Positions 3,720-33,633 of a DNA stretch of 64,000 nucleotides are shown here, one piece after another; position 1 is the first letter of the stretch, and every line of letters begins with the position of its first letter. The position numbers were made by a program, and so were the translations under genes. Below the pieces are notes generated by a model. It made no database searches. It was not told the origin of the DNA and saw only the letters and a program-made list of their open reading frames with translations. The stretch is taken from NCBI RefSeq assembly GCF_018139485.1, contig NZ_JAGSNF010000001.1, positions 1 to 64,000 on the forward strand. Direction: 5' to 3'. This stretch comes from Phycicoccus avicenniae (GTDB lineage: Bacteria; Actinomycetota; Actinomycetes; Actinomycetales; Dermatophilaceae).

Positions 3720-5891
3720 TCAGCCGGTCGTCAGCGTCGCGACCTCGAGGTCCTCGACCGTCGGCACCACGAAGCGGACACCGTCGGGGGTGTGCTCGAG
3801 CGCGGCCTCCACGTCGGCGCGCAGCAGCCGCACGGACGTGGCGGCGACGTGCACCGTCACCGTGAACGGGCCGAGCGGACGGAAGGACTCGACGGGCTCG
3901 TCGTTGGTGCCGGCGTTGTCCAGGTTCACGAGGACGACGACGGGGCCGCCGGGGGTCTCCCAGCAGCGCACGTCGACGTACCCCCCACCCTCGACCGTGA
4001 CGAGCGGCCCCGTCGGTTCGAGGGTCCACCTCGCGAGGTTTCCCAAGAGGGTGCGGTGGTCGACCGTGCGGTGGACGAAGAACTGCGCGTCGAGGTCCGT
4101 CGCGAGGTACGCCGTCCGGGACCCGCCCGTCGACGAGGTCGCGAGGACGGACCGGCCGCTCCCGGCGGGCAGGCCCGCCGCGTGCGTGGGGATCATGTGC
4201 TCCGAGCGGGTCCACTCCAGGGAGGTCGGGTTGTCGGTCTCGAAGCGCGTGACCCAGCTTCCGCCCGTCACGACCTCGTCGGGCTCGAACCCCGGCAGGA
4301 GGGTGTGGGCGAAGGGATCGTCGCCGAGGCGGAGGTACGAGACGAGGTCGAAGCCGTCCGGCGCGGGCGGCTCGCGGCGGACGCCGGCCGCGCGGCCCAC
4401 AGGGTCCCCCTCGTGCGGCCGACCCCACTCGTCGAGCATGCCGGCCGTCCCGACGACGACGAGGGAGCCACCGCGGGCGACGAACGCCGAGACCCGGTCC
4501 ACGGCCTCGACCGACAGCGACAGCCCGCTCGGCAGGACGAGGGTCCGCAGGTCGTCCCACGACTCTCCCGAGTCGGCGTTGACGAGCTGGGTGGGAACCC
4601 GGTTCCGCAGCAGGGCGAGGTACCAGCCGGACACGGCGTCGCCGTGCTCCGGCCCGGGGTGCGCGCAACCCCAGTCCGCGAGCCACGAGCTCGCCTGGGA
4701 CCACAGGACGCCGATGTCGGCGACCGGTCGCCGGTCACGGAACACCTGAGCGTGCTCGGCGACCCACGCGTCGAGCGCGACGACCCCGTCGATCCAGCTC
4801 CGTCGGTACTGGCGGGCGGAGACGGCGTGCCAGACCGGCAGCTCCCCGTGGGCGAGGGCCTGCGCCATCTGGAGTCGCAGCTCCGCGGGCTCCTTCGCCG
4901 TGTGGCGACCCCCGCCGCGGAACCGGTAGGTCGCCTGGATGCGCAGCGTGGGTGTCGCCTCGGCCACGGACCGGAGGATCTCCGAGCTGAGCCCCACCTC
5001 CCACAGCGCGTGCGACGGCGCCAGCCGCCCGTAGTTGCCGGACCGGTCCTGGTTGTCGCAGAAGACGAGGTCGAGCTCGTCGGCCCACTCCCGCCACGGC
5101 AGCCCGCCGCGGAGGGTCGGTGTGGCCGAGGTGATGAAGGTCATCCCCTCCCCGAGCGAGCGGGTGTACGCCTGGAGGTCACGCAACCGCGTGAGGGACG
5201 TCTCCTGGAGGAAGCGCACGTAGCGCCGGAACACCGGGTCGTCGGGGTCGTCGGCCGCGGGGTAGGCCTCCTGGCCGCTCGCCTCGGCCCACAGTCGACG
5301 GCAGGCATCGCAGTGGCACGCCATCCGCAGCGACGGGGTCGCGAGCGCGACCGTGGGGAAGCCGTTGGTGAAGAAGCCGGCGACGTCGTATCCCTCGGCG
5401 ACCTCCGTGAGCAGCCGGGGGAGGTAGTCGTCGAAGAGTCCGGAGTTGATGCACGAGTAGTACATCTGGTTCTCCAGGCGGTGACCGCCCGGCTCGCCCC
5501 ACGTCCCTCCGGTCACGTCGTTGAGGGTGCGCGAGCGGCCGTGCTCGTCGGTCATCATCCAGTCGGGGTGGAGGTCGCGGAACCGCTGGTCGACGACCCC
5601 GACGTCGAGACGGCCGACCACCTGGATCCCGGCCCCACGGGCCGCGGCGACGAGCTCGCCGAAGACGTCGCGGCGGTCCACCCCGGCGGCGACGGGGTGA
5701 CCCTCGAGTCGGGTCGGGTGGTAGGCCATGATCCCGCCGCAGTTGAGCAGCACGGCCTCGAGCCGGGCCCGGGTCCAGACGTCGAGCCAGAAGTCGACGT
5801 CGACGAGGGGGACGTCGGCCTCGGTGAGGTTCACCTGCCCGACGCGGGTGAGCCCGGACAGTCGTGCTGCGGGGGAGGGGGATGCGGACAT
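3720..5891 (-). CDS. GHL6-like putative glycoside hydrolase, subtype A (A1)
   Basis: A 723-residue protein with no signal peptide, so cytoplasmic. The N-terminal ~400 residues look like a TIM-barrel hydrolase of the 'hypothetical glycosyl hydrolase 6' type. They are followed by a beta-galactosidase-trimerisation/GATase-like domain (LVLPSGLSLSVEAVDRVSAF, near 460-490) and a beta-sandwich tail. Landmarks shared with three other proteins here are N50-x-G-G, H108-P-D-W111, FFTNGF (173-178) and a possible metal site C192-H-C-x-x-C197. It is a close paralogue of A2 (31480-33633). GAGAGG precedes the ATG by 7 nt. It is transcribed away from its transporter across a palindrome-containing promoter region. 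The glycosidic substrate is unknown; a uronate-bearing oligosaccharide is inferred from context. Confidence 0.65.
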   Translation of the reverse strand: MSASPSPAARLSGLTRVGQVNLTEADVPLVDVDFWLDVWTRARLEAVLLNCGGIMAYHPTRLEGHPVAAGVDRRDVFGELVAAARGAGIQVVGRLDVGVVDQRFRDLHPDWMMTDEHGRSRTLNDVTGGTWGEPGGHRLENQMYYSCINSGLFDDYLPRLLTEVAEGYDVAGFFTNGFPTVALATPSLRMACHCDACRRLWAEASGQEAYPAADDPDDPVFRRYVRFLQETSLTRLRDLQAYTRSLGEGMTFITSATPTLRGGLPWREWADELDLVFCDNQDRSGNYGRLAPSHALWEVGLSSEILRSVAEATPTLRIQATYRFRGGGRHTAKEPAELRLQMAQALAHGELPVWHAVSARQYRRSWIDGVVALDAWVAEHAQVFRDRRPVADIGVLWSQASSWLADWGCAHPGPEHGDAVSGWYLALLRNRVPTQLVNADSGESWDDLRTLVLPSGLSLSVEAVDRVSAFVARGGSLVVVGTAGMLDEWGRPHEGDPVGRAAGVRREPPAPDGFDLVSYLRLGDDPFAHTLLPGFEPDEVVTGGSWVTRFETDNPTSLEWTRSEHMIPTHAAGLPAGSGRSVLATSSTGGSRTAYLATDLDAQFFVHRTVDHRTLLGNLARWTLEPTGPLVTVEGGGYVDVRCWETPGGPVVVLVNLDNAGTNDEPVESFRPLGPFTVTVHVAATSVRLLRADVEAALEHTPDGVRFVVPTVEDLEVATLTTG

Positions 5892-6132: not shown

Positions 6133-6165
6133 CGAGCGATCACTTCAACGAGGAAGGTCATCACC

Positions 6166-7449
6166 GTGGACAGAGGCATCCTGAAGCGCGCCGTCGCGAC
6201 CTCCGCCGGGATCGCGGTCGGAGCAGCCATGCTCGCCGGCTGCGGCCAGCGCGAGGGCGGCGAGACCGCAGCACCCACCGCCACCGTCGACAGCTCCCCC
6301 GCCACCGGCGAGATCGTCGTCTGGGCGGCCGAGAACGAGGGGCAGACCCTCGAGGCCCTCGCGGAGACGTTCCAGGAGGAGAACCCCGACGTCACGGTGA
6401 CGATCACCCCGATCACCTTCGACGACCTCCCGCGCAAGATCGACACCGCCGTCGCGGGCGGCGAGGTCCCGGACATCGTCCAGCCCTCGACGGGCCTGCA
6501 GACCTTCGTGACGAACGGGGCCATCGCCCCCGTCCCCGCGGACCTGGTCGACACGAGCATCTACTTCGACGGCGCACTCGACGCGGCGACCTTCGACGAC
6601 GTCCTCTACGGAGTGCCCTGGTACGTCACGGTGCAGTCGTACTACTTCCGCGAGGACATCGCCGAGGAGGCCGGGTTGGAGGCCCCGACGACGTGGGACG
6701 AGGCGGTCGAGTTCGCCGGCGCGATGCAGGAGGAGGGCGTCGACATCGGCAACGCCCAGTTCACGACCGGCGTCGGCGCCTGGCAGACCGTGCTGCCGCT
6801 CATCTTCCAGGCCGGCGGGAACGTCGTCGACGACGAGGGGAACTTCGTCCTCGACAGCCCGGAGGTCGTCGAGGCGCTCGACCACTACCAGCGGTTCTTC
6901 CGCGAGGGTGTCGCCGACCCGACGTACACCATCACGGCTGCCGGTGAGGTCGAGGCCGACCTCGCGGACGGCAGGGTCGGGTCCTACACGACCGGCTCCT
7001 ACTCTTACGGCATCGCCCTCGACGCGCTCGACGGCGACGAGTCCAAGATCGGCGTCTCCCCCCTGCCGGCCGGCCCCGAGTCGAACGCGGGCTACCTCGG
7101 CGGCTCGACCCTGTCCGTGATGGAAGGTGCCGAGAACGCCGACGCGGCGTGGAAGTTCATCCGGTACGCGACGACCGTCGAGGCGGAGCAGCAGGCGTAC
7201 GACGTCTCCGGCGTGCTGCCGGCGGCCCGGGACTCCTGGAACTCCGGGCCCCTCGCCGACTCGGCCGAGGGCCAGGCCTTCGCCGCGCAGCTCGAGGAGA
7301 GCGTCCCGGCCCCCAAGGTCCTCACGTGGACCGAGGTCCGTGACGTCATCGCCGAGTACGCCGAGCAGGTGGCTCGCGAGGTCATCACGCCCGAGGAGGC
7401 CGCCGCCGCGATCCAGGACGAGGCCGAGCGGATCGGTACCGGCGAGTGA
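6166..7449 (+). CDS. ABC sugar transporter solute-binding lipoprotein (module 1)
   Basis: A 427-residue extracytoplasmic binding protein. It has a lipoprotein signal peptide with lipobox L-A-G-C (Cys26), then a family-1 (CUT1, maltose-binding-protein type) fold seen in GEIVVWAAENEG, NPDVTVTITP and VPDIVQPSTG. It captures an oligosaccharide and delivers it to the two permeases that follow. The GTG at 6166 was chosen because GGAAGG lies 8 nt upstream and the signal peptide begins there. The protein at 26274-27557 has exactly the same length and is a clear paralogue. A strong promoter with operator-like repeats lies just upstream. Confidence 0.9.
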   Translation: MDRGILKRAVATSAGIAVGAAMLAGCGQREGGETAAPTATVDSSPATGEIVVWAAENEGQTLEALAETFQEENPDVTVTITPITFDDLPRKIDTAVAGGEVPDIVQPSTGLQTFVTNGAIAPVPADLVDTSIYFDGALDAATFDDVLYGVPWYVTVQSYYFREDIAEEAGLEAPTTWDEAVEFAGAMQEEGVDIGNAQFTTGVGAWQTVLPLIFQAGGNVVDDEGNFVLDSPEVVEALDHYQRFFREGVADPTYTITAAGEVEADLADGRVGSYTTGSYSYGIALDALDGDESKIGVSPLPAGPESNAGYLGGSTLSVMEGAENADAAWKFIRYATTVEAEQQAYDVSGVLPAARDSWNSGPLADSAEGQAFAAQLEESVPAPKVLTWTEVRDVIAEYAEQVAREVITPEEAAAAIQDEAERIGTGE

Positions 7450-7493
7450 GCACGGCCCCGACGCTGGAGGGACCGCGCCAGGAGGAGGAGACG

Positions 7494-8414
7494 ATGGCCG
7501 AGGGCGTGACCACGCCACCGCGGAGGCGACGTCGGACGTCGATGCAACGGTCGCAGGCCATCGCCGGCTGGGCGTTCTCGTTGCCCTTCGTCCTCGTCTT
7601 CCTCGTCTTCAGCGCGTGGCCGATCCTCTGGTCGCTCTTCATGAGCTTCACGAACATGACGAGCCGGGACCTGCGGGACCCGTTCTACGTCGACTTCGTG
7701 GGGCTCGAGAACTTCGCGCGAGTCCTGGGCGACCCGGACTTCCGTCGGGCGATGCTCGTCACCGCCGCGATCGCGGTCGTCGCGGTGCCGGTGACCATCG
7801 TCGTCGCCCTCCTCATCGCCGTCGCCCTGAACCGCGGCATCCGGCGGTTCAAGACGTTCTTCCGCACGGCCTTCTACGTGCCCGTCGTCACGAGCATCGT
7901 CGCCATCGCCGTGGTGTGGACGCTGCTCTTCGACCGGAACGGCGTCGTCAACGGGCTCCTTGACACGGTCGGCATCGACGGTCCGGACTGGCTCGGCGAC
8001 ACGACGTGGGCCCTGCCCACGGTCACCCTGCTCGTGATCTGGCGGCTCTTCGGCCTCATCATGGTGCTCTTCCTCGCCGGCCTCCAGGCCATCCCCGACG
8101 ACCTCTACGAGGCCGCGGAGATCGACGGCGCGGGCACCTGGCGGCGGCTGTTCTCGATCACGGTGCCGCTCATGGTCCCGAGCATCCTGCTCGCGACCGT
8201 GCTGCTCACCGTCGCGATCATCCAGGTCTTCGAGGAGCCCTACGTCATCACTCAGGGCGGCCCGCTCGGGAGCACCACGTCCGCCGCGATGTACATCTTC
8301 AACGAGTTCGGCTACGGGCGGTACGCGGCGGCCTCGGCCGCGAGCTACCTGCTCTTCGCCTTCATCGCGTTCCTGTCCTTCCTGCAGTTCCGCCTCCTGA
8401 GGAGTCGCACGTGA
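7494..8414 (+). CDS. ABC sugar permease, MalF type (module 1)
   Basis: A 306-residue inner-membrane permease with about six membrane segments, opening with WAFSLPFVLVFLVFSAWPIL. The cytoplasmic EAA loop is DLYEAAEIDGAGTWRRLFSI (about residues 203-222), the contact point for the ATPase. I start it at the ATG at 7494, behind a strong GGAGGAGGAG. A GTG at 7446 overlapping the lipoprotein stop would add 16 residues. It forms a heterodimer with the next gene. No ATP-binding subunit is encoded anywhere in the window, as is usual for actinobacterial CUT1 systems that share an MsiK-type ATPase. Confidence 0.9.
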   Translation: MAEGVTTPPRRRRRTSMQRSQAIAGWAFSLPFVLVFLVFSAWPILWSLFMSFTNMTSRDLRDPFYVDFVGLENFARVLGDPDFRRAMLVTAAIAVVAVPVTIVVALLIAVALNRGIRRFKTFFRTAFYVPVVTSIVAIAVVWTLLFDRNGVVNGLLDTVGIDGPDWLGDTTWALPTVTLLVIWRLFGLIMVLFLAGLQAIPDDLYEAAEIDGAGTWRRLFSITVPLMVPSILLATVLLTVAIIQVFEEPYVITQGGPLGSTTSAAMYIFNEFGYGRYAAASAASYLLFAFIAFLSFLQFRLLRSRT

Positions 8415-9280
8415 GTGCCGCCACCGACGAGACCGTCCGCCCCGCCCCGGCGACCGGACGCGACCCCGACCGCCTGGCGAGGGTGGTGCTCTACGCCCTG
8501 CTCCTCCTGGGCGTCGTCATCACCCTTAGCCCGCTCGTGTGGACGGCGGCCAGCTCGTTCCGGCCCTCCGGCGAGATCCTCCGCCAGGGCAGCTGGCTCA
8601 CCGGGACGTGGACCGGCGAGAACTTCCGGGCGCTGTGGTCCGACCCGCTGTTCCCCCGGTACTTCCTCAACAGCGTCGTCGTCTCGGCCGCCATCGTCGC
8701 GGGCAACATCGTCCTCGCGTCGGGGGTCGGCTACGCCCTCGCGAAGCTGCCCTTCCCCGGGCGACGGCTCGTGTTCGGAGCGGTCCTCGTGACGTTCATG
8801 ATCCCCTCGCTCATGCTCTTCGTCCCGCTGTTCGTCACCGTCGCCTTCCTCAACATGACGAACACGTACGCCGGGCTCATCCTGCCGTTCCTCGTCACCC
8901 CGCTCGGGGTGTTCGTCATGCGGCAGTTCATCGGGCAGCTGCCCGACGAGCTCCTCGAGGCGGCCCGGATCGACGGGGCGGGCGAGGGACGGATCTTCTT
9001 CCGGATCGTCTTCCCGCTGTGCCGGCCGGCGATCGCCACCGTGGGGATCCTGTCCTTCGTCACCTCGTGGAACAACCTGCTGTGGCCGCTCGTCGTCGCC
9101 CAGCGCGAGGAGATGTACACGCTGCCGGTGGCGCTCGCGACCCTGTCGAGCAGCGAGGGGGCGGTGAGCTACGGGCCGCTCATGGCCGGGTCGCTCGTGA
9201 CCATCCTGCCGATCGTCATCGTCTTCATCTTCTTCCAGCGCTACTTCGTCGCCGGTATCGCCTCGACGGGGATCAAGTGA
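8411..9280 (+). CDS. ABC sugar permease, MalG type (module 1)
   Basis: A 289-residue carbohydrate ABC permease. A leading membrane segment (VVLYALLLLGVVITLSPLVW) is followed by the 'NS(V/I)xVS' region (YFLNSVVVSAAIV) and the EAA motif LLEAARIDGAGEGRIFFRIV typical of the second subunit. The GTG start overlaps the previous stop by 4 nt, with GAGGAG 6 nt upstream. It pairs with the preceding permease. The next gene (alpha/beta hydrolase) again overlaps its stop by 4 nt, so the operon continues. The paralogue is at 28502-29395. Confidence 0.9.
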   Translation: MSAATDETVRPAPATGRDPDRLARVVLYALLLLGVVITLSPLVWTAASSFRPSGEILRQGSWLTGTWTGENFRALWSDPLFPRYFLNSVVVSAAIVAGNIVLASGVGYALAKLPFPGRRLVFGAVLVTFMIPSLMLFVPLFVTVAFLNMTNTYAGLILPFLVTPLGVFVMRQFIGQLPDELLEAARIDGAGEGRIFFRIVFPLCRPAIATVGILSFVTSWNNLLWPLVVAQREEMYTLPVALATLSSSEGAVSYGPLMAGSLVTILPIVIVFIFFQRYFVAGIASTGIK

Positions 9281-10134: not shown

Positions 10135-10153
10135 CCCCCACGAGAGGCCGCCG

Positions 10154-12181
10154 ATGACCGACCACGACCAGTGGTGGACCCACCCGTTCCGGCTGTTCCA
10201 GACGAACCTGCGCGAGGTCGACGCCGGCCTCGACGTCGAGCGGACACTGTCGGAGATGACGGGGCTCGGGTACGACACGTGGCTGTGCAACGCGGGCGGG
10301 ATCATGTCCTTCTACCCGACGTCGAACCCGGTCCAGCGGGAGGCCTCGGGGCTCGCGGAGCGGGCCTCGGGCGACCTGGTCGCCGACGTCATGGCGGCCG
10401 CGGCCCGGCACGGTGTGCGGGTGCTGTCCCGCTTCGACTTCTCGCGCCTGCCGTCGGACCTGCTCGAGGACCACCCGGAGTGGCGCTTCGTCGGCGCCGA
10501 CGGGCGTCCCTACGTCGCCGACGGGCTCACCGCCATCTGCCCCCGCAGCGACTACCACGAGGTGCACGTCCCGCAGATCCTGCGGGACTTCGTCACCCGG
10601 TACGAGCCGCAGGGGGTCTTCTTCAACTGGCTCCAGTACCCCGAGGTGTCCTACGAGGGGGACTACCACGGGGTGTGCCGGTGCGACCGCTGCGTCGCCG
10701 CGATGCGGGAGGCCCACCCCGACCTGGCGCACCCGTCGGGACGGGGCGGGGCCGGCTACGAGGAGTGGCTCGAGCTCTCCCGGGCCCACCTCACCCGGCT
10801 CGCGCACCGGTACCGGGAGGTCGTCAACGACATCCGGCCCGGCACGCCGCTCATGCTCGCCGACGTCCGGATGGACATCGCCTTCCTCGAGACGAACAGC
10901 CACCTCGGCGGGGAGTCCGAACGATGGTGGGTGCACACCCCGAGCGAGCTCGCGAGCCTGCACCGGGCCCTCGACCCGCCCGTCCCGTCGGTCGTCCACT
11001 CCTCGGCCAACGTCGGCCTCGCGCACCGCCAGGTCGCCGAGCAGCCGGACCAGTTCCGCCGCTACGCCGCGCAGGCGCTCTCGCGGGGGGCCTGGCCGTC
11101 GACGGTCGTCATCGGCGACGTCGACCTCGGCCGCTACCCGTGCATCCCGGGGGCGTCGGACCTGCTGGGTCTCCTCGTCCGGCACGACCGGCTCTACGAC
11201 GCCTTCCGCTCCGCGGCCCCGGTCGCGCTGCTGCGCCCCGAGGGTGGGACGGCGATGGCCGCGATGCAGTCCGGCAGCGACTTCACCGAGTACCGGGGCC
11301 TGTACTCCGCCCTCCAGGAGGCACACGTCCCCTTCGACGTCCTGGGCCTGCAGGACCGGGACCGGCTCGCCGACCCCGACCTGCTCGGCCGCTACCGGCT
11401 GCTCGTCGTCCCGGGGACCGCCGGGCTCGGCCCGCGGCTCGCGGCCGCGATCGACGCGTTCGTCGAGTCCGGCGGAGCGGTGCTGCTCACCGGGCAGTCG
11501 TTCGAGGACGGCCGACCGGTCCTCTCCTGCGCCCCGGCCGCCTCGCTCGTGGAGGCGGTCACCGACGAGAAGGCGCTCGGCGGTCGCTACGTCGGGCCGG
11601 CCGACGGAGGCGTCTCGACGACGCTGCTGCCGGTGCTCGGTCGGTTCGACGTCGTCGTCCCCGTCGGCGGGACGGTCACGGGTGACGCGGTGCTCAGCAC
11701 CCGGTCACCCTTCGGGCCACCCGAGGTGTCGGGAGGGAACCGGCCGCGCGACGACGCCCCCACGGTCCTGCGCGGCACGTACGGCGCGGGCCGGACCACC
11801 CAGCTGCCGTGGACGGTCGGGACGACGTTCCGGCGCTCCGGCCTCGCCTCCGTCGCCGAGGTCGTCGTCGCCGAGACGCTCGCGCTGCTCGGGGACCACC
11901 TGTTGTTCGTCACGGACCTGCCGGCGCCCGTCGAGGTGACGGCGGGGAGGTCGGGGGCGACGATGGTCGTGAGTCTCGTCAACCACACCGGGGGGCGGCC
12001 CGACCGGACCGGACCGCCGGTCCCGGTGCGCGGTGCCGTGACCTTCGCCGCCGGGGTCCCCGTGAGCCGCGTACGGGCGCTCGTCGCCGGCGTGGAGCTC
12101 CCGGTGTCCTCGCTGCCGGACGGCAGGACCCGGGTCGAGGTCGGGCTCGACGGCGTCCTCGAGGTGCTCACCGTCGACTGA
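10154..12181 (+). CDS. GHL6-like putative glycoside hydrolase, subtype B (B1)
   Basis: A 675-residue cytoplasmic protein, last gene of transporter operon 1. It shares the landmarks of the A-type enzymes: N46-x-G-G-x-x-S-F-Y-P, H107-P-E-W110, VFFN (155-158) and the possible metal site C175-R-C-x-x-C180. The opening WWTHPFRLFQTNLREVDAGLD is specific to subtype B, as is the shorter segment before the Cys cluster. A trimerisation/GATase-like domain follows (YRLLVVPGTAGLGPRLAAAI), then a beta-rich C-terminus. GAGAGG lies 6 nt before the ATG. It is probably a glycoside hydrolase acting on imported oligosaccharide. Substrate and catalytic residues are not known to me. It is paralogous to B2 (29392-31437). 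Confidence 0.62.
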   Translation: MTDHDQWWTHPFRLFQTNLREVDAGLDVERTLSEMTGLGYDTWLCNAGGIMSFYPTSNPVQREASGLAERASGDLVADVMAAAARHGVRVLSRFDFSRLPSDLLEDHPEWRFVGADGRPYVADGLTAICPRSDYHEVHVPQILRDFVTRYEPQGVFFNWLQYPEVSYEGDYHGVCRCDRCVAAMREAHPDLAHPSGRGGAGYEEWLELSRAHLTRLAHRYREVVNDIRPGTPLMLADVRMDIAFLETNSHLGGESERWWVHTPSELASLHRALDPPVPSVVHSSANVGLAHRQVAEQPDQFRRYAAQALSRGAWPSTVVIGDVDLGRYPCIPGASDLLGLLVRHDRLYDAFRSAAPVALLRPEGGTAMAAMQSGSDFTEYRGLYSALQEAHVPFDVLGLQDRDRLADPDLLGRYRLLVVPGTAGLGPRLAAAIDAFVESGGAVLLTGQSFEDGRPVLSCAPAASLVEAVTDEKALGGRYVGPADGGVSTTLLPVLGRFDVVVPVGGTVTGDAVLSTRSPFGPPEVSGGNRPRDDAPTVLRGTYGAGRTTQLPWTVGTTFRRSGLASVAEVVVAETLALLGDHLLFVTDLPAPVEVTAGRSGATMVVSLVNHTGGRPDRTGPPVPVRGAVTFAAGVPVSRVRALVAGVELPVSSLPDGRTRVEVGLDGVLEVLTVD

Positions 12182-12208
12182 CACACCGTCAGCCGCGCCG
12201 TCGGACCG

Positions 12209-12237: not shown

Positions 12238-12279
12238 GGGGCCGGCGCCCCGGTCGACGGCGGGAAGGACCAACCGAGA

Positions 12280-12957: not shown

Positions 12958-12973
12958 CGCGCCAGTATGGCAC

Positions 12974-20642: not shown

Positions 20643-21784
20643 CGGGCCGAGGCAACGGCCGACCCGGCCGTCGCCGGGTCGTGCTCGCCCCCGACAGCTT
20701 CAAGGGGTCGGTCGGGGCCGCCCGTGCCGCACGGGCGCTCGCCGACGGGTGGCGGTCGGTCGCGCCGGACGACGACCTCGTCCTGCGACCCGTCGCCGAC
20801 GGTGGCGAGGGCACGCTCGAGGCCTTCGCCGCCGCCCACCCCGGCGCGGTCCGTCGGCCGGTGACGGTCACCGGCCCGTCGGGCCGGGCCGTGGACGCGG
20901 AGTGGCTGCACGTCCCCGACGGCGACGGCGGGACCGGGGTCGTCGAGCTCGCCCTCGCCTGCGGGATCGAGCGGTACGCGCCCGGCGAGCCGATGCGGCC
21001 CCTCGACGCGAGCAGCGCCGGTCTCGGGGAGGCGGTCCGGCACGCCCTCGGGCACGGAGTCGACCGGCTCGTCCTCGCGATCGGGGGCAGCGCGTCGAGC
21101 GACGGGGGTGCCGGGATGCTCGTCGCGCTCGGGGCGCGGCTGCTCGACGGTGCGGGCCGGCCGGTCGCGGCGGGAGCCCGTGGCCTCGGGACCGTCGCCT
21201 CGGTCGACCTCGCCGGGCTCGTCCCGCCGCCGCCGGGTGGGGCCCTGACCCTCACGGACGTCGACTCCCCACTCCTCGGCCCCCACGGCGCCGCCGCGGT
21301 CTTCGCTCCGCAGAAGGGGGCGACGCCGGCCGACGTCGAGCGGATCGAGGACGCCCTCGACGGCTGGGCCCGACGCCTCGGCCGCGACCCCGGCACCCCG
21401 GGGTCCGGTGCGGCCGGCGGGGTCGGGTACGCCCTCGCGGTCTGGGGGGCCGAGCGGCGCCCGGGGGCGGCAGCGGTCACCGACCTCGTCGGGCTGGGCG
21501 ACGCACTCGCCGGGGCCGACCTCGTCGTGACGGGTGAGGGGCGGTTCGACGAGCAGTCCGGCCGGGGGAAGGCCCCGGCGGTCGTCGTCGCCGCGGCGGC
21601 CGCTGCCGGTGTGCCGGCGGCGCTCGTGGCGGGCAGCCTCGGCACCACCCCGGAGCACGTCCTCTCGGCGGTCTCGCTCGTCGACCTCGCCGGCGACGAG
21701 GCCGACGCGATGGCCCGACCGGAGCACTGGCTGTCCCGCGCGGGCGCGGCTCTCGCCGCGGCCGGCACGCGCCCGGGCGGCTGA
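20639..21784 (+). CDS. Glycerate kinase
   Basis: A 381-residue glycerate kinase of the GK-I (GlxK/GarK) family. The entry motif VVLAPDSFKGSVGA is followed by the phosphate-handling VADGGEGTLEAF. IGGSASSDGGAGML and DLVVTGEGRFDEQSGRGKAP are hallmark blocks. It phosphorylates D-glycerate, usually to 2-phosphoglycerate, feeding glycolysis. The GTG start overlaps the preceding stop by 4 nt. With hyi, garR and the 2-hydroxyacid dehydrogenase it completes a route from hydroxypyruvate/tartronate semialdehyde to central metabolism. Confidence 0.9.
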   Translation: MTGRGNGRPGRRRVVLAPDSFKGSVGAARAARALADGWRSVAPDDDLVLRPVADGGEGTLEAFAAAHPGAVRRPVTVTGPSGRAVDAEWLHVPDGDGGTGVVELALACGIERYAPGEPMRPLDASSAGLGEAVRHALGHGVDRLVLAIGGSASSDGGAGMLVALGARLLDGAGRPVAAGARGLGTVASVDLAGLVPPPPGGALTLTDVDSPLLGPHGAAAVFAPQKGATPADVERIEDALDGWARRLGRDPGTPGSGAAGGVGYALAVWGAERRPGAAAVTDLVGLGDALAGADLVVTGEGRFDEQSGRGKAPAVVVAAAAAAGVPAALVAGSLGTTPEHVLSAVSLVDLAGDEADAMARPEHWLSRAGAALAAAGTRPGG

Positions 21785-26273: not shown

Positions 26274-27557
26274 ATGCGAGCAGGACGTGGACGAACCGTA
26301 TCCGTGGTGACGGCGGCGCTCGTGACCGTGTCGATCGCGCTGGGCGGCTGCGGGCGGTCCGACGACGGGCCGCAGACGAACGACGTCGCGTCCGTCGACG
26401 ACTCACCCGCCGAGGGCGACCTCACGGTATGGGCCTTCACCAACCAGGCGGCGGCGGTCGAGCAGATCTCGGAGGGCTTCGTCGCGGAGAACCCGGACGT
26501 CAGCGTCTCGGTCACCCCGGTGTCCGTCGACGAGCTGCCCCGCAAGCTCGAGACCGCGATCGCGAGCGGTGAGGTTCCCGACATCATCCAGCCCTCGACG
26601 GGTCTGCAGACCTACGCCGAGACGGGCGGCATCGCCCCCGTCCCCGAGGACCTCATGGACTGGGACGCCTTCTTCCCCGGTGCCATCGACACGGTCACCT
26701 TCGACGAGGTGAAGTACGCGGTGCCGTGGTACGTCACCGTCTTCGGCTTCTACTACCGCGCCGACCTCGCCGAGGAGGCCGGGGTCGAGGCCCCGACGAC
26801 GTGGGACGAGGTCCTGGACTTCGCCGCCGCGCTGGAGAGCTCGGAGGGCATGGCGAACCCCTACTTCCAGTTCCAGTCGGGCACGGCGGCCTGGCAGACC
26901 CTCGTGACGTACATGTACTCCGCAGGAGCGGAGCTCGTCGTCGACGACGAGTTCGACTTCGACTCGCCGGAGGTCGTGGCCGCCCTCGAGTACTACCAGC
27001 AGGTCTTCGCCGACGAGTACACGAACATCAACTTCGCCCCCACAGCAGTGGGCGAGGTGGAGGCGGCCTTCGCCGACGGGCGCGTCGGGTCCTACGTCAC
27101 CGGCTCCTACTCCTACGACGTCGCCCTCGAGGCCCTCGGCGGTGACGACTCCAAGATCGGTGTGGTGCCGCTCCCGGCCGGCCCGGCGGGCGGGAACGCC
27201 TATCTCGGCGGGTCGGGGCTCGCGGTCACGGCCGACTCGCAGAACAAGGACGCCGCCTTCAAGCTGCTGCGCTGGATGTCGACGCCGGAGTCCCAGCAGG
27301 AGCTCTACGAGGTCTCGAGCGTGCTGCCCGCGGCCACGGGGGCCTGGGAGTCCGGTCCGCTCGCGGAGAGCGAGAGCGGTCGGGCCTTCGCGGCGCAGCT
27401 CGAGAACAGCACGGCGCTCCCGGCGGTCGAGACGTGGACCCGCGTGCGCGAGGTGCTCGCGACGTACGCGGAGCAGCTGGCTCGGCAGGTCATCACGCCC
27501 GAGGACGCCGCTGCCGCGATCCAGCAGGAAGCCGCCGCGATCGGCACGGGTCGCTGA
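26274..27557 (+). CDS. ABC sugar transporter solute-binding lipoprotein (module 2)
   Basis: A 427-residue lipoprotein with lipobox L-G-G-C (Cys26) and a CUT1 binding-protein fold. Long blocks match the module 1 protein, such as GEVPDIIQPSTGLQTY, VEAPTTWDEV and VGSYVTGSYSY. A strong AGGAGGAG precedes the ATG. It starts an operon of lipoprotein, permease, permease, hydrolase B2 and hydrolase A2. The two lipoproteins probably bind related but not identical oligosaccharides. A LacI-type operator overlaps the promoter. Confidence 0.9.
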   Translation: MRAGRGRTVSVVTAALVTVSIALGGCGRSDDGPQTNDVASVDDSPAEGDLTVWAFTNQAAAVEQISEGFVAENPDVSVSVTPVSVDELPRKLETAIASGEVPDIIQPSTGLQTYAETGGIAPVPEDLMDWDAFFPGAIDTVTFDEVKYAVPWYVTVFGFYYRADLAEEAGVEAPTTWDEVLDFAAALESSEGMANPYFQFQSGTAAWQTLVTYMYSAGAELVVDDEFDFDSPEVVAALEYYQQVFADEYTNINFAPTAVGEVEAAFADGRVGSYVTGSYSYDVALEALGGDDSKIGVVPLPAGPAGGNAYLGGSGLAVTADSQNKDAAFKLLRWMSTPESQQELYEVSSVLPAATGAWESGPLAESESGRAFAAQLENSTALPAVETWTRVREVLATYAEQLARQVITPEDAAAAIQQEAAAIGTGR

Positions 27558-27560
27558 CCT

Positions 27561-28505
27561 ATGTCGATGCTGCGTCCGACCTTCGGCCGCCGCCCTTCCG
27601 AGGGTGGCGGCCGCGGGCCCCGTGGGGCCGGCGGCCGGCGCGAGGAGGCGGTCGCCGGCTGGCTGCTCGCGCTGCCCTTCGTCGTCGTGTTCCTCGTCTT
27701 CAGCCTCTGGCCGATGCTGTGGTCGCTCTTCATGAGCTTCACCGACATGACGAACCGCGACCTGCGCTCGCCCTTCAACGTCGAGTTCATCGGGTTCGAC
27801 AACTTCGTCACCGTGCTCTCGAGCGGGCAGTTCCTCCGCGGGATCGTCAACACCCTCGTCATCGTCGTCGTGGGCGTCCCGGCGACGATCGTCCTCGGGC
27901 TCCTGCTCGCCGTCGCGCTCAACAACGGCATCCAACGGGCCAAGCCGCTGTTCCGCACGATCTACTACGTCCCCGTCGTGACGACCGTCGTCGCGATCGC
28001 CGTCGTGTGGAAGTTCCTCTTCGCCGACCAGGGTGTCTTCAACGCCGTGCTCGCCACCGTGGGGGTCGACGGACGCCCATGGCTCACCGACACGTTCTGG
28101 GCGCTGCCGACGATCATCCTGCTCATCGTCTGGCGGAGCTTCGGCTTCATCATGGTGCTCTTCCTCGCCGGCCTGCAGGCCATACCCCAGGACCTCTACG
28201 ACGCCGCCCGCGTGGACGGCGCCTCGGCGCCCCGGCGGCTGTTCTCCATCACGGTGCCGTTGCTCATGCCGACCATCCTCCTCGCGATGGTGCTGCAGAC
28301 GGTCTCCTTCCTCGAGATCTTCGAGGAGCCGTTCGTCACGACGCAGGGTGGTCCCCTCAACTCCACGGCGACGATGTCGATGCTCGTCTACGAGTTCTTC
28401 GGCTTCGGCGCCTACGGGGAGGCCGCAGCGGCGAGCTACGTGCTCTTCGCGATCATCGGCCTCCTGTCACTCGTCCAGTTCCGCGTCCTGAGGAGCCGCA
28501 CGTGA
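27561..28505 (+). CDS. ABC sugar permease, MalF type (module 2)
   Basis: A 314-residue membrane permease with about six helices. The first is VAGWLLALPFVVVFLVFSLWP, after a Gly/Arg-rich cytoplasmic leader. The EAA loop is DLYDAARVDGASAPRRLFSI. It begins 3 nt after the lipoprotein stop. Extended identity with the module 1 permease (LWSLFMSFT.MT.RDLR, GLQAIP.DLY.AA) marks it as a paralogue. Confidence 0.9.
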   Translation: MSMLRPTFGRRPSEGGGRGPRGAGGRREEAVAGWLLALPFVVVFLVFSLWPMLWSLFMSFTDMTNRDLRSPFNVEFIGFDNFVTVLSSGQFLRGIVNTLVIVVVGVPATIVLGLLLAVALNNGIQRAKPLFRTIYYVPVVTTVVAIAVVWKFLFADQGVFNAVLATVGVDGRPWLTDTFWALPTIILLIVWRSFGFIMVLFLAGLQAIPQDLYDAARVDGASAPRRLFSITVPLLMPTILLAMVLQTVSFLEIFEEPFVTTQGGPLNSTATMSMLVYEFFGFGAYGEAAAASYVLFAIIGLLSLVQFRVLRSRT

Positions 28506-29395
28506 CCCTCACGTCCACCCGTCCCGCCGCCGCGCCCACCACGCCCGAGCCGCGCCGCCGTCGGCGCCGCGGCTCCGAGAGGGGTCGCGCCTGGCGTGCC
28601 CTCCTCTACGTCGTCCTCTCGATCGGCGCGATCGTCACGTGCAGCCCGCTCCTGTGGACCCTCGTCAGTGCCTTCAAGCCGACCGGGCAGATCCTGCGGA
28701 GCGAGTCGTTCTGGCCGGACCCGGTGACCCTGGACAACTTCCGGTTCCTCATCGAGAACCCCGAGTTCCCCCGGTACTTCCTCAACAGCGTCGTCGTGTC
28801 GACCTCGATCGTCGTCGCGAACCTGCTCCTGGCCTCCGCCGTGGGCTACGCCCTCGCGAAGCTCCGGTTCCCCGGCCGCCGGGCCGTGTTCGTCGCGGTG
28901 CTCCTGACCTTCATGATCCCCGCGATGGTGCTCTTCGTCCCCCGCTTCGTCACGATCGCCCAGCTCGGTCTGGCGAACACCTACGCGGGGATGATCCTGC
29001 CGTTCGTCGTCACGCCGATCAGCGTCTTCATCATGCGGCAGTTCATCTCCCAGCTGCCGGACGAGCTCCTCGAGGCCGCGCGCATCGACGGTGCGGGCGA
29101 GATCCGGATCTTCGCCCGGGTCTTCCTGCCGCTCTGCGGCCCGGCTCTGGCGACGGTCGGCATCCTCACCTTCGTCACCTCATGGAACGCCCTCCTGTGG
29201 AACCTCGTCGTGGCACAGCGGACCGACATGTACACCCTCCCCGTCGCGCTCACCGTCATGTCGCAGAACGAGGGGATGACGAACTACGGCGCGCTGCTCG
29301 CCGGCTCGCTCGTGACCTTCGCGCCCATCGTCGTGCTCTTCCTCTTCTTCCAGCGCTACTTCGTCTCGGGCATCGCGACGACCGGCATCAAGTGA
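28502..29395 (+). CDS. ABC sugar permease, MalG type (module 2)
   Basis: A 297-residue permease with an Arg-rich N-terminus, then helix ALLYVVLSIGAIVTCSPLLW. The EAA motif is LLEAARIDGAGEIRIFARVF. It ends in the same FQRYFVSGIATTGIK tail as its module 1 counterpart. The GTG overlaps the previous stop by 4 nt, and hydrolase B2 overlaps its own stop by 4 nt. Unlike module 1, no alpha/beta hydrolase gene intervenes. Confidence 0.9.
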   Translation: MTLTSTRPAAAPTTPEPRRRRRRGSERGRAWRALLYVVLSIGAIVTCSPLLWTLVSAFKPTGQILRSESFWPDPVTLDNFRFLIENPEFPRYFLNSVVVSTSIVVANLLLASAVGYALAKLRFPGRRAVFVAVLLTFMIPAMVLFVPRFVTIAQLGLANTYAGMILPFVVTPISVFIMRQFISQLPDELLEAARIDGAGEIRIFARVFLPLCGPALATVGILTFVTSWNALLWNLVVAQRTDMYTLPVALTVMSQNEGMTNYGALLAGSLVTFAPIVVLFLFFQRYFVSGIATTGIK

Positions 29396-31437
29396 CGACG
29401 TCCGAGCGGGAGTGGTGGCGACGCCCCTTCGCCACGTTCCAGACGAACCTGCAGGAGATCGACGCGGGGATGGACGTCCCGGCGGTGCTGGACACGATCG
29501 AGTCCGTCGGGGCGGACACCTGGCTCCTCAACGTCGGAGGGATCGTCTCGTTCCACCCGAGCGACCTGCCGTTCCAGACCCCGACGTCGTACCTCGCGAC
29601 GCGACCCTCCGGCGACCTCGTCGGCGACGCCGTCGCTGCGGCGCACGCGCGCGGGGTGCGCGTCATCGCGCGGATCGACCTGTCGAAGGTCGCCGAGCCG
29701 ATCGCCCGTGAGCACCCGGACTGGCTCTTCGTCTCGGCTCGGGGGGAGCCACAGGTCTACGAGTCGCTCCACTCCACGTGCCCGAACCGCGCGTACTGGC
29801 AGACGCACGCCGTCGACATCGTCGGTGAGGTCCTCGACCGGTACCCCGTCGACGGGTTCTTCTTCAACTGGTTCAGCTTCAACGCGCACGACTACGCAGG
29901 TCGGGACCACGGCGTGTGCCACTGCGAGGACTGCGCGAGGGCGTACGCGGCCTTCGGTGACGGTGCGCGCCTCCCGGTCGACGCCGACGACCCGGAACAC
30001 CCACGGTGGCAGGAGTTCACCCGGGCGTGCATCGCCGACCTCGGCGGCCGCATCGCCGAGGAGATCGAGCGCCGTTCCCCGGGGACACCGCTCGTCCTCC
30101 AGCGTGGGACCGCCCTGCCGTACGGCGAGGTCGGCAACAGCCTCGGGCGCGTCGCGTGGCCGCACGCGAGCGGCGACGTCGTCAGCGTGCGGAAGAGTCT
30201 CGCCCCCGAGGTCCCCGTCCTCGTGCTCCTCGTGTCCTTCCTCGACATCGGGTACCGGTTCGCGGCCGACCAGACCGAACGGTTCCTCCAGTACCTCCTC
30301 CAGGCGATCGCCCGGGGCGGGAACCCCTGCGTCTACGTCATGGGCGATCCCACTCGTGTCCCGTCCCCGCACCTCGAGGCCGTCGGCGAGGTCGTCCGGC
30401 TCTTCCGGTGGCACGCCGACGTCTACGACGGTCTCCACCCGGCCGCGCCGATCGCCCTCGTGCGCCCCTCCCTGACGTCCCGCTCGGCGGGCTACGAGGG
30501 TGACGGCGACGCGGCGCTCGCCCTCGACGAGTACCGCGGACTGCACCGGGCGTTGCAGGAGCGGCACCGACCGTTCGACGTCGTCGACCGCAGCGCGCTG
30601 GCGGGGATCACGGCGGAGGCGCTCGAGCGCTTCGAGCTCGTCGTCCTGCCGGCGCTCGGCCCGCTCGGGGCCTCCGTGTCGGCGGTGCTCGACGAGTACG
30701 TCCGCCGCGGCGGACACCTCCTCCTCACCGGTGACACGGCCCTGGACGGCGGGGCGGTCGAGGTCTCGACGCACCCGGCGACCACCCTGTCCGACACCGA
30801 GCGCCACGGTTCCGCCCTGAGGTCCGTCTACGCCCTGCCGTCCCCGCCACCACCCGGCGGTCTCCCTTCGTCGTTCTCCGCCCCCGTCCTCCCCGTCCTC
30901 GGTGAGCTGCGACGCTTCGCCTGGCGTGACGATGCGGTCCCGTTCGGCGCAGTGACGACGGCCGCGCCGTGGGGTCCCCCGGAGAAGAGCTTCGGGCACC
31001 GGGTGACGGAGGACCCGATGGGTGCGACCCGTCGGTCCGGGCGCGGTGCGGTGACGGCGCTCGCGGTGACCCTCGGGGCGGCGTACTCGGCCGCGGGCAC
31101 CCGTGAGGTGCGGGACGAGCTCGTGCGGCGTGTCGACGACCTCGCGAGGCCATGGGTCGAGACCGACCTCCCGGAGCAGGTCGAGGTCGTCGTGGCACGC
31201 AGCGGTGACCGCCTCGTCCTCCACGTGCTGAACCAGACGGGAGTCCGCGACGGCACGGTCCTGCGCCACGTGCCCCTGCGAGAGGTGTCGATCCGGATCC
31301 GGACGGTGGACGCCGTCGGACGGGTCGACCTCCTCGTCGACGGGACCTCCCAGCGGTCGGAGCGCGACGCCGCCGGAGTCGTCACCGTCACCATCCGGCA
31401 CCTCGGGCTCTTCGAGGTCGTCGTGCTCGCACCGTGA
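29392..31437 (+). CDS. GHL6-like putative glycoside hydrolase, subtype B (B2)
   Basis: A 681-residue cytoplasmic enzyme, translationally coupled to the permease (GTGA overlap). It carries N47-x-G-G-x-x-S-F-H-P, H108-P-D-W111, FFFN (156-159) and the putative metal site C176-H-C-x-x-C181. The subtype B start signature WWRRPFATFQTNLQEIDAGMD is present. A trimerisation/GATase-like domain follows (FELVVLPALGPLGASVSAVL), then a beta-rich tail. It is paralogous to B1. Its role is inferred as a glycosidase on oligosaccharides imported by module 2; specificity is unknown. Confidence 0.62.
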   Translation: MTTSEREWWRRPFATFQTNLQEIDAGMDVPAVLDTIESVGADTWLLNVGGIVSFHPSDLPFQTPTSYLATRPSGDLVGDAVAAAHARGVRVIARIDLSKVAEPIAREHPDWLFVSARGEPQVYESLHSTCPNRAYWQTHAVDIVGEVLDRYPVDGFFFNWFSFNAHDYAGRDHGVCHCEDCARAYAAFGDGARLPVDADDPEHPRWQEFTRACIADLGGRIAEEIERRSPGTPLVLQRGTALPYGEVGNSLGRVAWPHASGDVVSVRKSLAPEVPVLVLLVSFLDIGYRFAADQTERFLQYLLQAIARGGNPCVYVMGDPTRVPSPHLEAVGEVVRLFRWHADVYDGLHPAAPIALVRPSLTSRSAGYEGDGDAALALDEYRGLHRALQERHRPFDVVDRSALAGITAEALERFELVVLPALGPLGASVSAVLDEYVRRGGHLLLTGDTALDGGAVEVSTHPATTLSDTERHGSALRSVYALPSPPPPGGLPSSFSAPVLPVLGELRRFAWRDDAVPFGAVTTAAPWGPPEKSFGHRVTEDPMGATRRSGRGAVTALAVTLGAAYSAAGTREVRDELVRRVDDLARPWVETDLPEQVEVVVARSGDRLVLHVLNQTGVRDGTVLRHVPLREVSIRIRTVDAVGRVDLLVDGTSQRSERDAAGVVTVTIRHLGLFEVVVLAP

Positions 31438-31479: not shown

Positions 31480-33633
31480 ATGACCCGACTGGACGGCCTG
31501 ACCCGGTTCGGACAGGTGAACTTCACCGCCGCCGACGTCGACGAGATGGACCCTGAGTACTGGCGGGAGGTCTGGTCGCGCGCGGACCTCCAGGCCGTGA
31601 GCCTCAACGTCGGGGGCTCGGTCGCCTACTACCCGAGCGACGTCGAGGGACACCCTCGGCTCCCGGGGGTCGGCGACCGTGATCCCTTCGGCGCGATGGT
31701 CGAGGTGGCCCGGGGCCTGGGGATCGAGGTCGTCGCCCGCCTCGACGTCTGCGTCGTCGACCAGCGGTTCTGCGATCTCCACCCGGACTGGATGATGACC
31801 GGCCCGGACGGTCGTCCCCTGACGCTCCACGACGTGACCGGCCGGCCCTGGGGCAGGCCGGGGGCGCCGCCGATCGAGGACGAGCTCTACTACACGTGCG
31901 TCAACTCGGACCTCTTCCGCACGTACCTCCCGGCGATGCTCACGGAGATCGCGGAGCGCTACGACGTCGCGGCGTTCTTCACCAACGGGTTCCCGACGCT
32001 CGGCCTCGTCCCGCCGTCCACCCGGCTGCTCTGCCACTGCCCCCGATGCCTCGAGGCGTGGGCGGACTTCAGCGGCGGCCTCGCCTACCCCGCGGCGGAC
32101 GACCCGGACGACCCGGTCTTCCGGACCTACGTCGCGTTCCTCCAGCACTGCACCCTCGAGGTGCTCCGGAGCATCCAGGCCCACACCCGCGCCCAGCGTG
32201 GCGGTCCGACGTTCATCACCTCGGCGATCCCCAGCATGGCGGGTGCCCTGCCGTGGTCGCAGTGGGCGGACACGCTCGACGTCGTCGTCACCGACAACCA
32301 GGACCGGGCCCTCGACCACGGCCGCGCGACCCCTCCGGCAGGACTCTGGGAGGTCGGCCTCAGCACCGCCCTCATGAAGTCCGTGGCACGTGGTCGCCCC
32401 GCCGTCCGGATCATGGGGGCGTACCGGTTCCGCCAGGGGCGGCACACGTCGAAGGACCCCGCCGAGCTGAGCCTGCAGCTCGCGCTGTCCTTCGCGCACG
32501 GAGAGCATCCGAAGTGGCACACGATCTCCGGACGCCAGTGGAGCCGACGATGGACGGACACGGCCGTCGCCTTCGACCGCTGGCTCGCCTCGTCCGGGGT
32601 GGACCTCGGAACCCTGCCCTCCGCGGCGCGGGTCGGTGTCGCCTGGTCGCAGCAGAGCGCCTGGCACGAGACGTGGGTCTCCCCGCCCTCGCGCGGCGCC
32701 CACTACGACGCCGTCGCCGGGTGGTACGTGGCCGTGCAGCGGTCGGGTGTGCCGGTCGACCTCGTCAACGCCGACCTCCTCGACGGGCTCGAGGGGCTCG
32801 ACGCCCTCGTCCTCCCGTCCGGCTTCACGGCGAGCGAGGCGACCCTGGAACGCATCGCCCGCTTCGTCGAGGGCGGGGGCGGGCTCGTCGCGGTGGGGAA
32901 CGCCGGGCTGCTCGACGAGTGGGGCCGGCCGCACCCGCGGGACATCGTCGGCGGCTTGCTCGGCATCGTCCGGGGGGAGACCCGTGGTCCCGCGTTCACG
33001 ACGTACCTCCGGCGGACGGGAGTGCCGGTCGAGGAGCGCCTCATGCTCGCGCCGGACGACGACGACGTCGTCCCGTCGGGGCAGTGGGTCACCGCCTTCG
33101 AGGCGCACGACGCGGAGCCGGCGTTCGCGGTGAACCCCCAGGAGTGGGTCATCCCGACGCACGCGGCGTGGCTCCCCGGGGCGTACGACGGTCCGGCGGT
33201 AGCCCTGGCGACCCGCCCGGGCCGGACCGGGGCCTACCTCGGTCCCGACCTCGACGTCGCGTACTTCCACCAGCGGGTCGGCGACCACCTCGCCGTCCTC
33301 CGCGGCGCGCTCGACCACGCCCTAGGGGACCGGCGGCCGCCGGTCCGCGTCCTCGGGGACGCGCACGTCGACGTCCACGCCCTCACCGCGTCGGACGCCA
33401 CGTACGTCACCCTCGTGAACCTCCACCATCCCGGGGCGTCCGGCGGGGTCGTGGAACACCTCGCGCCGCTGCGGGAGGTGCGCATGGTCCTGTCCGGTGG
33501 TCTCGCTCCGAGCCGAGCCGAGCTGCTGAGGTCGGGGACCAGCCTCGAGGTCCCAGCCTCCGGCGAGCTCGTCGTCGACTGCGTCACCGACGTCGAGGTC
33601 GTCCGCATCACGCCCCACCCCGGGTCCGACTGA
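31480..33633 (+). CDS. GHL6-like putative glycoside hydrolase, subtype A (A2)
   Basis: A 717-residue cytoplasmic enzyme ending transporter operon 2. It aligns with A1 along nearly the whole length: LTRFGQVNFTAADV, N43-x-G-G, H101-P-D-W104, FFTNGF (166-171), CHCPRC (185-190), YPAADDPDDPVFR and LLDEWGRPH. It starts 42 nt after B2 with a GAGGA-type Shine-Dalgarno. The A/B pair in each module suggests two sequential or complementary cleavages of the same glycan (inference). It converges with gluconokinase 17 nt away. Confidence 0.65.
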   Translation: MTRLDGLTRFGQVNFTAADVDEMDPEYWREVWSRADLQAVSLNVGGSVAYYPSDVEGHPRLPGVGDRDPFGAMVEVARGLGIEVVARLDVCVVDQRFCDLHPDWMMTGPDGRPLTLHDVTGRPWGRPGAPPIEDELYYTCVNSDLFRTYLPAMLTEIAERYDVAAFFTNGFPTLGLVPPSTRLLCHCPRCLEAWADFSGGLAYPAADDPDDPVFRTYVAFLQHCTLEVLRSIQAHTRAQRGGPTFITSAIPSMAGALPWSQWADTLDVVVTDNQDRALDHGRATPPAGLWEVGLSTALMKSVARGRPAVRIMGAYRFRQGRHTSKDPAELSLQLALSFAHGEHPKWHTISGRQWSRRWTDTAVAFDRWLASSGVDLGTLPSAARVGVAWSQQSAWHETWVSPPSRGAHYDAVAGWYVAVQRSGVPVDLVNADLLDGLEGLDALVLPSGFTASEATLERIARFVEGGGGLVAVGNAGLLDEWGRPHPRDIVGGLLGIVRGETRGPAFTTYLRRTGVPVEERLMLAPDDDDVVPSGQWVTAFEAHDAEPAFAVNPQEWVIPTHAAWLPGAYDGPAVALATRPGRTGAYLGPDLDVAYFHQRVGDHLAVLRGALDHALGDRRPPVRVLGDAHVDVHALTASDATYVTLVNLHHPGASGGVVEHLAPLREVRMVLSGGLAPSRAELLRSGTSLEVPASGELVVDCVTDVEVVRITPHPGSD

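Follow-up and report, generated by a model that had tools for sequence, protein, structure and literature searches.

GHL6-type proteins related to GH151 with Asn in the nucleophile column and a candidate catalytic Asp on the neighboring strand

We analyzed a stretch of 64,000 nucleotides (the window) of contig NZ_JAGSNF010000001.1 of Phycicoccus avicenniae, whose genome comprises 3.54 Mb in 26 contigs, and focused on four GHL6-type proteins: A1 (3720..5891, minus strand, 723 aa, by eye without a signal peptide), B1 (10154..12181, plus strand, 675 aa), B2 (29392..31437, plus strand, 681 aa) and A2 (31480..33633, plus strand, 717 aa), with start codons chosen among several possible ones. As members of the GHL6/GH151-like proteins these four are ordinary. 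What is notable in their sequences is the loss of the nucleophile of glycoside hydrolase family 151 (GH151), together with a conserved carboxylate on the adjoining strand that is absent from GH151. We call "N-class" the proteins that have an Asn at the end of strand beta-4 together with [R/H]-x-Asp on beta-3. The reading we favor, to which we give a probability of about 0.4, is that N-class proteins have the fold and ancestry of GH151 with a rearranged active site, and act as inverting exo-glycosidases on importer-delivered, perhaps acidic, oligosaccharides.

The difference in catalytic residues was assessed in 165 distinct sequences, aligned from 227 profile matches after removal of near-copies and of pieces shorter than 380 residues. 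The beta-4 residue is Asn in 135 sequences, Asp in 17 and Ala in one (L190, with M-x-D on beta-3); the 12 remaining sequences, with a gap at this position, are 7 with a GIW[E/H]N motif, 4 GH42-like sequences (with Asn-Glu) and 1 fragment. N-class accounts for 142 of the 165 sequences, with R-x-D on beta-3 in 141 and H-x-D in one. All 17 sequences of the Asp type have Y-x-[S/T] on beta-3, none has [R/H]-x-Asp, and four of them are 71-74% identical, over a 97-residue piece, to the GH151 alpha-L-fucosidase ALfuk2 (PDB 6tvk). In a tree of 53 barrel sequences with less than 62% identity, the 10 Asp-type rows make up one side of a branch (support 97). From these residue counts and the tree it follows that N-class and GH151 have a common ancestor but differ in the catalytic residue, N-class carrying the beta-3 Asp instead. 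The FF[TF]N motif highlighted in an earlier, sequence-only reading of this DNA marks the loss of the GH151 nucleophile Asp.

Two alignments place these residues in the same columns. In an alignment based on hidden Markov models, N159 of B2 corresponds to residue 183 of the 6tvk chain, that is, to D154 of ALfuk2 (by a counted offset of 29, which also puts a His at 503), and the profile-profile alignment of N-class with the Asp type (E-value 8.5e-62) pairs N159 with Asp, D96 with Ser and R94 with Tyr. A review names D154 (beta-4) of ALfuk2 as the nucleophile, E235 (beta-6) as the acid/base and His503, contributed by the neighboring subunit, as part of the active site (PMC10154630). In the model of B2, D96 lies at the end of beta-3, N159 at the end of beta-4 and E246 at the end of beta-6, a position occupied by Glu in B types and Asp in A types (E/D in 134 of the 142 N-class rows). 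As read from the alignment, the stretch around His503 aligns with GPPE-x-x-x-GH of many B types, and IPTH is found nearby in A1 and A2.

In the window, these elements can be followed in each gene. A1 has GRLDVG on beta-3 (R94 and the candidate catalytic carboxylate D96; 5598..5615, minus strand), FTNG at the end of beta-4 (Asn176, in the GH151 nucleophile column; 5361..5372, minus strand) and CDNQD on beta-6 (D279, a candidate general acid; 5046..5060, minus strand). The other three genes are on the plus strand. B2 has ARIDLS on beta-3 (R94, D96; 29668..29685), FFNW at the end of beta-4 (Asn159, in the column of ALfuk2 D154; 29860..29871) and GEVGN at the end of beta-6 (E246, a candidate general acid; 30124..30138). 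The beta-3 and beta-4 elements are SRFDFS (10427..10444) and FFNW (Asn158; 10619..10630) in B1, and ARLDVC (31735..31752) and FTNG (Asn169; 31978..31989) in A2.

The GHL6-type assignment of the four proteins is borne out by Pfam PF14871, with scores of 50.4 (A1), 68.9 (B1), 89.2 (B2) and 43.0 bits (A2) for a cut-off of 35. The trimerization domain mentioned in the earlier reading (PF08532, cut-off 25.8) passes the cut-off in A1 (39.0 bits) and A2 (40.4 bits) only; B1 scores 19.8 bits and B2 is not listed, although GH151 and GH42 chains align with almost the entire B2 model. No NCBIfam family was listed for any of the four. The AlphaFold2 models of B2 (predicted local distance difference test, pLDDT, 92.3; predicted template modeling score, pTM, 0.93) and A1 (pLDDT 83.0, pTM 0.88) both have 6tvk as their top match in the PDB, with an E-value of 1.0e-36 and template modeling (TM) scores of 0.74/0.76 for B2, and 1.4e-37 and 0.74/0.81 for A1; GH42 and GH164 structures are among the matches listed after it. 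Likewise, the family profile (52 rows) matches 6tvk with an E-value of 1.8e-35 and the best GH42 structure with 7.6e-11. Sequence profiles and models alike thus identify ALfuk2, and not GH42, as the closest solved relative. The earlier view that such proteins are catalogued only as hypothetical hydrolases is outdated, since a protein with this domain pair, Mfuc3, was expressed as an alpha-L-fucosidase (PMC4723247), and GH151 has a crystal structure (PMC10154630). Another source describes the fucosidase activity of GH151 as poor and questioned (PMC8395109).

The predicted structures do contain the expected barrel, whereas the position of the carboxylate pair differs from that in both GH42 and GH151. 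GH42-like catalysis was rejected, given that the beta-4 Glu is absent and that GH151 is the better structural match. In every one of the 142 N-class rows, the beta-4 Asn is followed by M, W, A, S, R, G or C, so that the GH42 Asn-Glu pair is missing. Similarly, for the GH42 nucleophile on beta-7, no Glu column conserved above 80% was found between B2 positions 265 and 301 in an alignment of 86 rows (beta-7 of the B2 model spans 277-281).

Most of these 86 rows come from a single pattern scan of 84,980 species genomes, made with a mixed alignment of nine rows, which gave 388 relatives among 398 pattern matches. The best 80 of the 388 were kept; as the ranking was by resemblance to B2, A types are under-represented. 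These 80 belong to actinobacteria, Chloroflexi, Firmicutes (mostly Paenibacillus), Bacteroidota and one unplaced bacterium. An open reading frame (ORF) bearing the motifs was found in 77 of the 80 loci (L077, L087 and L090 were dropped at that step), and the 77 relatives were aligned with 9 other sequences, one genome being represented twice. The beta-4 Asn and R-x-Asp are present in all 77 aligned relatives. The positions invariant over the 86 rows are, in B2 numbering, Q17, N47, G49, G50, P56, R94, D96, W111, N159, P195, R289 and G383. A second sample covers part of the GHL6-type genes from 24 genomes with N-class loci (30 loci; 60 stretches) and, joined with loci from the first, gave the 165 distinct sequences described above. 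Because it was drawn using N-class queries, the diversity of the Asp type is under-sampled. Samples taken by phylum contained few relatives: 5 of 396 genomes with A1 as query and 9 of 396 with B2, where two candidates were scored in each genome and some of the relatives are GH42-like.

The four proteins are homologous rather than similar by chance, since all of them exceed the GHL6 cut-off and A1 aligns with B2 with an E-value of 3e-24. The shared motifs reported earlier indeed occur in one order in all four, except that B1 has VFFN in place of FF[TF]N. They lie at residues 50-59 (NCGGIMAYHP), 108-111 (HPDW), 173-176 (FFTN) and 192-197 (CHCDAC) in A1; 46-55 (N-x-G-G-type motif), 107-110 (HPEW), 155-158 (VFFN) and 175-180 (CRCDRC) in B1; 47-56 (N-x-G-G-type motif), 108-111 (HP[DE]W), 156-159 (FFFN) and 176-181 (Cys cluster) in B2; and 43-52, 101-104, 166-169 (FFTN) and 185-190 for the corresponding N-x-G-G-type motif, HP[DE]W, beta-4 motif and Cys cluster of A2. 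To these can be added three conserved features: R-x-D (B2 94-96), Q-x-N (B2 17-19) and a fourth Cys (B2 C130). The division into two subtypes is supported by pairwise identities (48% for A1/A2, 35% for B1/B2, 26% for A1/B2), by the placement of A and B types in different supported groups of the barrel tree, by a spacing between HP[DE]W and the Asn that is 17 residues longer in A types, and by an N-terminal WW-x-x-PF that is absent from A types. The split between A and B is an old one.

The CxCxxC cluster, likened before to that of GH42, does correspond to it: a four-Cys site (columns 130, 176, 178 and 181) is shared by the four window proteins and the GH42-like rows L058, L059, L060 and L062. 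The cluster is CHCDAC in A1 (5301..5318, minus strand; fourth Cys C147), CRCDRC in B1 (10676..10693, plus strand), CHCEDC in B2 (29917..29934, plus strand; fourth Cys C130) and CHCPRC in A2 (32032..32049, plus strand). All four Cys occur in 92 of the 142 N-class rows, in 13 of the 17 Asp-type rows and in the four GH42-like rows. Among N-class rows, C130 is present in all 92 with an intact triad and absent in 46, none of which has any triad Cys; it stands without the triad in 3 rows, and one row has lost a single Cys. Most Bacteroidota rows have lost the four-Cys site, as have several actinobacterial A types, L084 and a fifth GHL6 paralogue of P. avicenniae (contig C5). The triad is absent in 49 of 142 rows and is therefore not needed for catalysis by all members, and the site is probably structural because whole lineages have lost CxCxxC. 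By sequence, the cluster is probably part of an old, inherited structural site that may bind a metal.

Both pairs of genes stand beside ATP-binding cassette (ABC) sugar importers, each with a solute-binding protein and two permeases. One (6148..9280, plus strand) lies between A1 and B1, the other (26274..29395, plus strand) directly before B2, which overlaps the preceding permease gene by 4 bases and is followed by A2 after 42 bases. The neighborhoods of the relatives were searched with the window genes as queries (E-value 1e-20), with 20 similarly sized regions as controls; these were drawn from 20 of the 24 genomes mentioned above, including two Bacteroidota. Relatives of tartronate-semialdehyde reductase (TSR) or of a 2-hydroxyacid dehydrogenase are present in all 20 actinobacterial loci, in 3 of 4 from Chloroflexi and in 11 of 15 from Firmicutes (34 of 39 in total), and in none of the 20 control regions, where the N-class profile gave a single weak match (E-value 1.1e-7, L251). 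At fewer than 400 bases from the B-type match, TSR was found in 15 of 20 actinobacterial loci, the 2-hydroxyacid dehydrogenase in 11 and either of them in 18; the latter count is 8 of 15 for Firmicutes and 2 of 4 for Chloroflexi. Three of the four TSR relatives tested exceed the curated cut-off of TIGR01505. Loci with at least two N-class genes number 7 of 20 in actinobacteria (B together with A), 8 of 15 in Firmicutes, 2 of 4 in Chloroflexi (in one case a split gene) and 1 of 40 in Bacteroidota/other.

In the window itself, the TSR (above the TIGR01505 cut-off) and 2-hydroxyacid dehydrogenase genes lie with those of a hydroxypyruvate-isomerase-like protein and a glycerate kinase (17939..21784, plus strand), about 6.6-9.7 kb from B1 and B2 and not adjoining them. 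After A2 come the genes of the glucuronate isomerase UxaC and a LacI regulator (both minus strand), and of a UxuB-like protein of the mannitol dehydrogenase family (below NCBIfam cut-offs) and the D-mannonate dehydratase ManD (both plus strand), at 34205..39364. There is also a dehydratase of the MR_MLE type (24938-26086). An acidic product is suggested by TSR and 2-hydroxyacid dehydrogenase genes near many members outside Bacteroidota, together with UxaC and ManD in the window. We infer that the neighborhood serves acid-sugar catabolism, not uniformly across loci.

Under the reading we favor, N-class proteins would be active cytosolic exo-glycosidases, and their substrates would be short oligosaccharides imported by the adjoining ABC importers. 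The beta-6 Glu/Asp would serve as general acid; by analogy with GH97, the beta-3 Asp would be the general base of a single-displacement (inverting) reaction, possibly a switch from retaining to inverting relative to GH151. The four-Cys site would be structural. The released sugar may be acidic, uronic or aldaric, which we hold with less confidence, and subtypes A and B would differ in which bonds or positions of one glycan they act on. That 7 of 20 actinobacterial loci combine A and B genes fits such a division. We propose only tentatively the wider claim that N-class is an undescribed glycoside hydrolase family neighboring GH151, in which the catalytic carboxylate would have passed from beta-4 to beta-3 and retention would have given way to inversion, acting on acidic glycans, with two to three co-encoded subtypes and a distribution over at least four phyla.

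Several observations weigh against this reading. In 8 of the 142 rows (the 7 GIW[E/H]N rows and one gapped row), position 246 has no E or D. The models place E246 of B2 and D279 of A1 on beta-6, but position 246 and E235 of ALfuk2 are not matched with each other in the profile alignment. In the tree, the branch uniting the 40 Asn rows and L190 has a Shimodaira-Hasegawa-like approximate likelihood ratio (SH-aLRT) support of only 82, and the long-branched L190, with its Ala and M-x-D, falls inside N-class. The split between Asn and [R/H]-x-D may be a single event, so the mutual exclusion of the two residue sets is not replicated. TSR and 2-hydroxyacid dehydrogenase relatives are found in none of the 40 Bacteroidota/other loci nor in the single unplaced one (L107), and loci are not all independent: the 15 from Firmicutes come from 11 assemblies, the 4 from Chloroflexi from 2, and several genomes gave two. 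Of the 20 actinobacterial loci, one has UxaC, two have UxuB and one has ManD; these counts do not support uronate genes as general neighbors. Since 14 of the 17 Asp-type rows likewise have R/K at position 289, this residue is no sign of uronate, and R289 was dropped as a uronate binder. Finally, the Clostridiales locus L090 has three N-class genes and a GH29-type alpha-L-fucosidase gene (4241-5716), which speaks for a fucosylated glycan at that locus.

The rows without an acid at position 246 that carry GIW[E/H]N (L192, L215, L217, L222, L226, L092:3-2213 and L131:13288-14667) form a subgroup in which the general acid has perhaps shifted further.

Among the alternatives, the one that survives best, though unlikely, is that N-class proteins are retaining glycosidases in which the carboxylate shifted from beta-4 to beta-3 and the beta-3 Asp is itself the nucleophile, with double displacement kept. 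It accounts for the same residue exchange and for the E/D at position 246 in 134 of 142 rows, but a carboxylate donated by the adjoining strand would probably lie farther away. It is improbable that they are substrate-assisted hydrolases, with N159 orienting a 2-acetamido or carboxylate group of the substrate and E246 as acid. An Asn does occupy the catalytic position in every N-class row, and Asn is likewise kept in some substrate-assisted families (GH85); however, no amino-sugar family is among the families listed for the scanned neighbors (including 25 of 64 and 25 of 56 in the tally below). We also give little credit to the idea that they are functional equivalents of GH151 alpha-L-fucosidases, with Asn for Asp and the substrate unchanged. 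The nearest structure is 6tvk, both classes belong to one superfamily, and L090 has its GH29-type gene. However, the catalytic nucleophile is absent in every N-class row, and the genomes of L171, L172 and L173 are among those holding both N-class and Asp-type proteins. Furthermore, a Pfam scan of 30 window proteins found no fucose isomerase or fuculokinase family; the MR_MLE dehydratase is present, however. Least probable of all is that they have lost catalysis and act as sugar-binding proteins or regulators: both catalytic pairs, that of GH42 and that of GH151, are incomplete, but R94, D96, W111 and N159 are invariant in 86 rows from four phyla, and the genes stand beside importer genes and, outside Bacteroidota, dehydrogenase genes.

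Other neighbors were tallied by Pfam family after exclusion of importer, regulator-like and dehydrogenase clusters, taking in 59 of 88 ORFs for actinobacteria (including L049 and L053) and 50 of 74 for Firmicutes/Chloroflexi; the tally covers the families listed (25 of 64 and 25 of 56), and some ORFs may be spurious. The largest among the families listed are solute-binding proteins (4 and 8), alpha/beta-hydrolases (4), sigma-factor parts (3) and AraC-type regulators (3); smaller ones are glycerate kinase, sugar-diacid regulator and Mannitol_dh (2 each), and UxuA, heparinase II/III and GH29 (1 each). The 2 sugar-diacid regulators and 2 glycerate kinases are among the Firmicutes/Chloroflexi ORFs. 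The Fusicatenibacter metagenome-assembled genome of locus L093 has three adjacent N-class genes of three subtypes (6507-13196), followed by a 2-hydroxyacid dehydrogenase, and in L087 a Chloroflexi N-class gene is split into two ORFs in the same frame (8857-11064).

Between B1 and B2, the region 13054-21784 forms a glycolate/glyoxylate-type block with malate synthase G, a GlcG-like protein, an oxidase linked to flavin adenine dinucleotide (FAD), the hydroxypyruvate-isomerase-like protein, TSR and glycerate kinase; in Microbacterium suaedae (L068), genes of an FAD oxidase, malate synthase G and a GlcG-like protein likewise come after the B gene. The gene at 39366-41495 encodes a protein of 709 aa without a Pfam match, distantly related to alpha-D-galacturonidase (NF049878, PDB BPa0997). 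Its relatives occur in 3 of 40 Bacteroidota/other loci, and L098 has a better match (139.6 bits) directly before an N-class gene.

The GC content of the window is 70-76% (in steps of 4 kb). The fifth paralogue, on contig C5, is of B type (L053, 10048-12024), lacks CxCxxC while keeping C130, and is flanked by TSR and 2-hydroxyacid dehydrogenase genes. Among the 186 genomes of the family, 32 have some GHL6 match, and P. avicenniae is the only one with matches above the cut-off, hence the gene set is accessory in this species; the 11 other listed genomes of the genus have no GHL6 match.

Titles and abstract openings of the literature found on GHL6, GH151 and trimerization-domain enzymes contain no description of N-class and assign it no reaction. 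Since the key catalytic residue of a fucose-cutting family is replaced and its shape kept, the four proteins probably cut another sugar bond than GH151, perhaps that of an acidic sugar, by a different route. If the rearrangement is true, setting N-class beside GH151 would reveal how a glycosidase relocates a catalytic carboxylate, and the linkage with TSR and 2-hydroxyacid dehydrogenase points to a concrete class of substrates for assays.

Compared with known systems, N-class is closest to ALfuk2 of Paenibacillus thiaminolyticus, with which it shares, along the whole chain, the barrel, the Rossmann-like domain and the beta-sandwich, and many of its rows share the four Cys columns with the Asp-type relatives of this enzyme. 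The differences are the nucleophile Asp replaced by Asn, R-x-D where the Asp type has Y-x-[S/T], a Gln in place of His (or Leu) at B2 position 17, and an identity of only 17-18%. Mfuc3, from a soil metagenome and later placed in GH151, has the same Pfam pair as A1 and A2. The GH42 beta-galactosidases (e.g., 5dfa, 3tts) also have the barrel, a trimerization-type domain and the four Cys columns, but N-class lacks the Glu after the beta-4 Asn and the conserved Glu near beta-7, and the structural match is weaker. GH97 is another family, calcium-dependent, which unites retaining and inverting members. In the inverting ones, Gly takes the place of the nucleophile Asp of the retaining relatives, and a Glu located elsewhere in the sequence is used (PMC2670981), an arrangement like the one we propose for N-class, where the nucleophile Asp is missing and the base would likewise come from elsewhere in the sequence.

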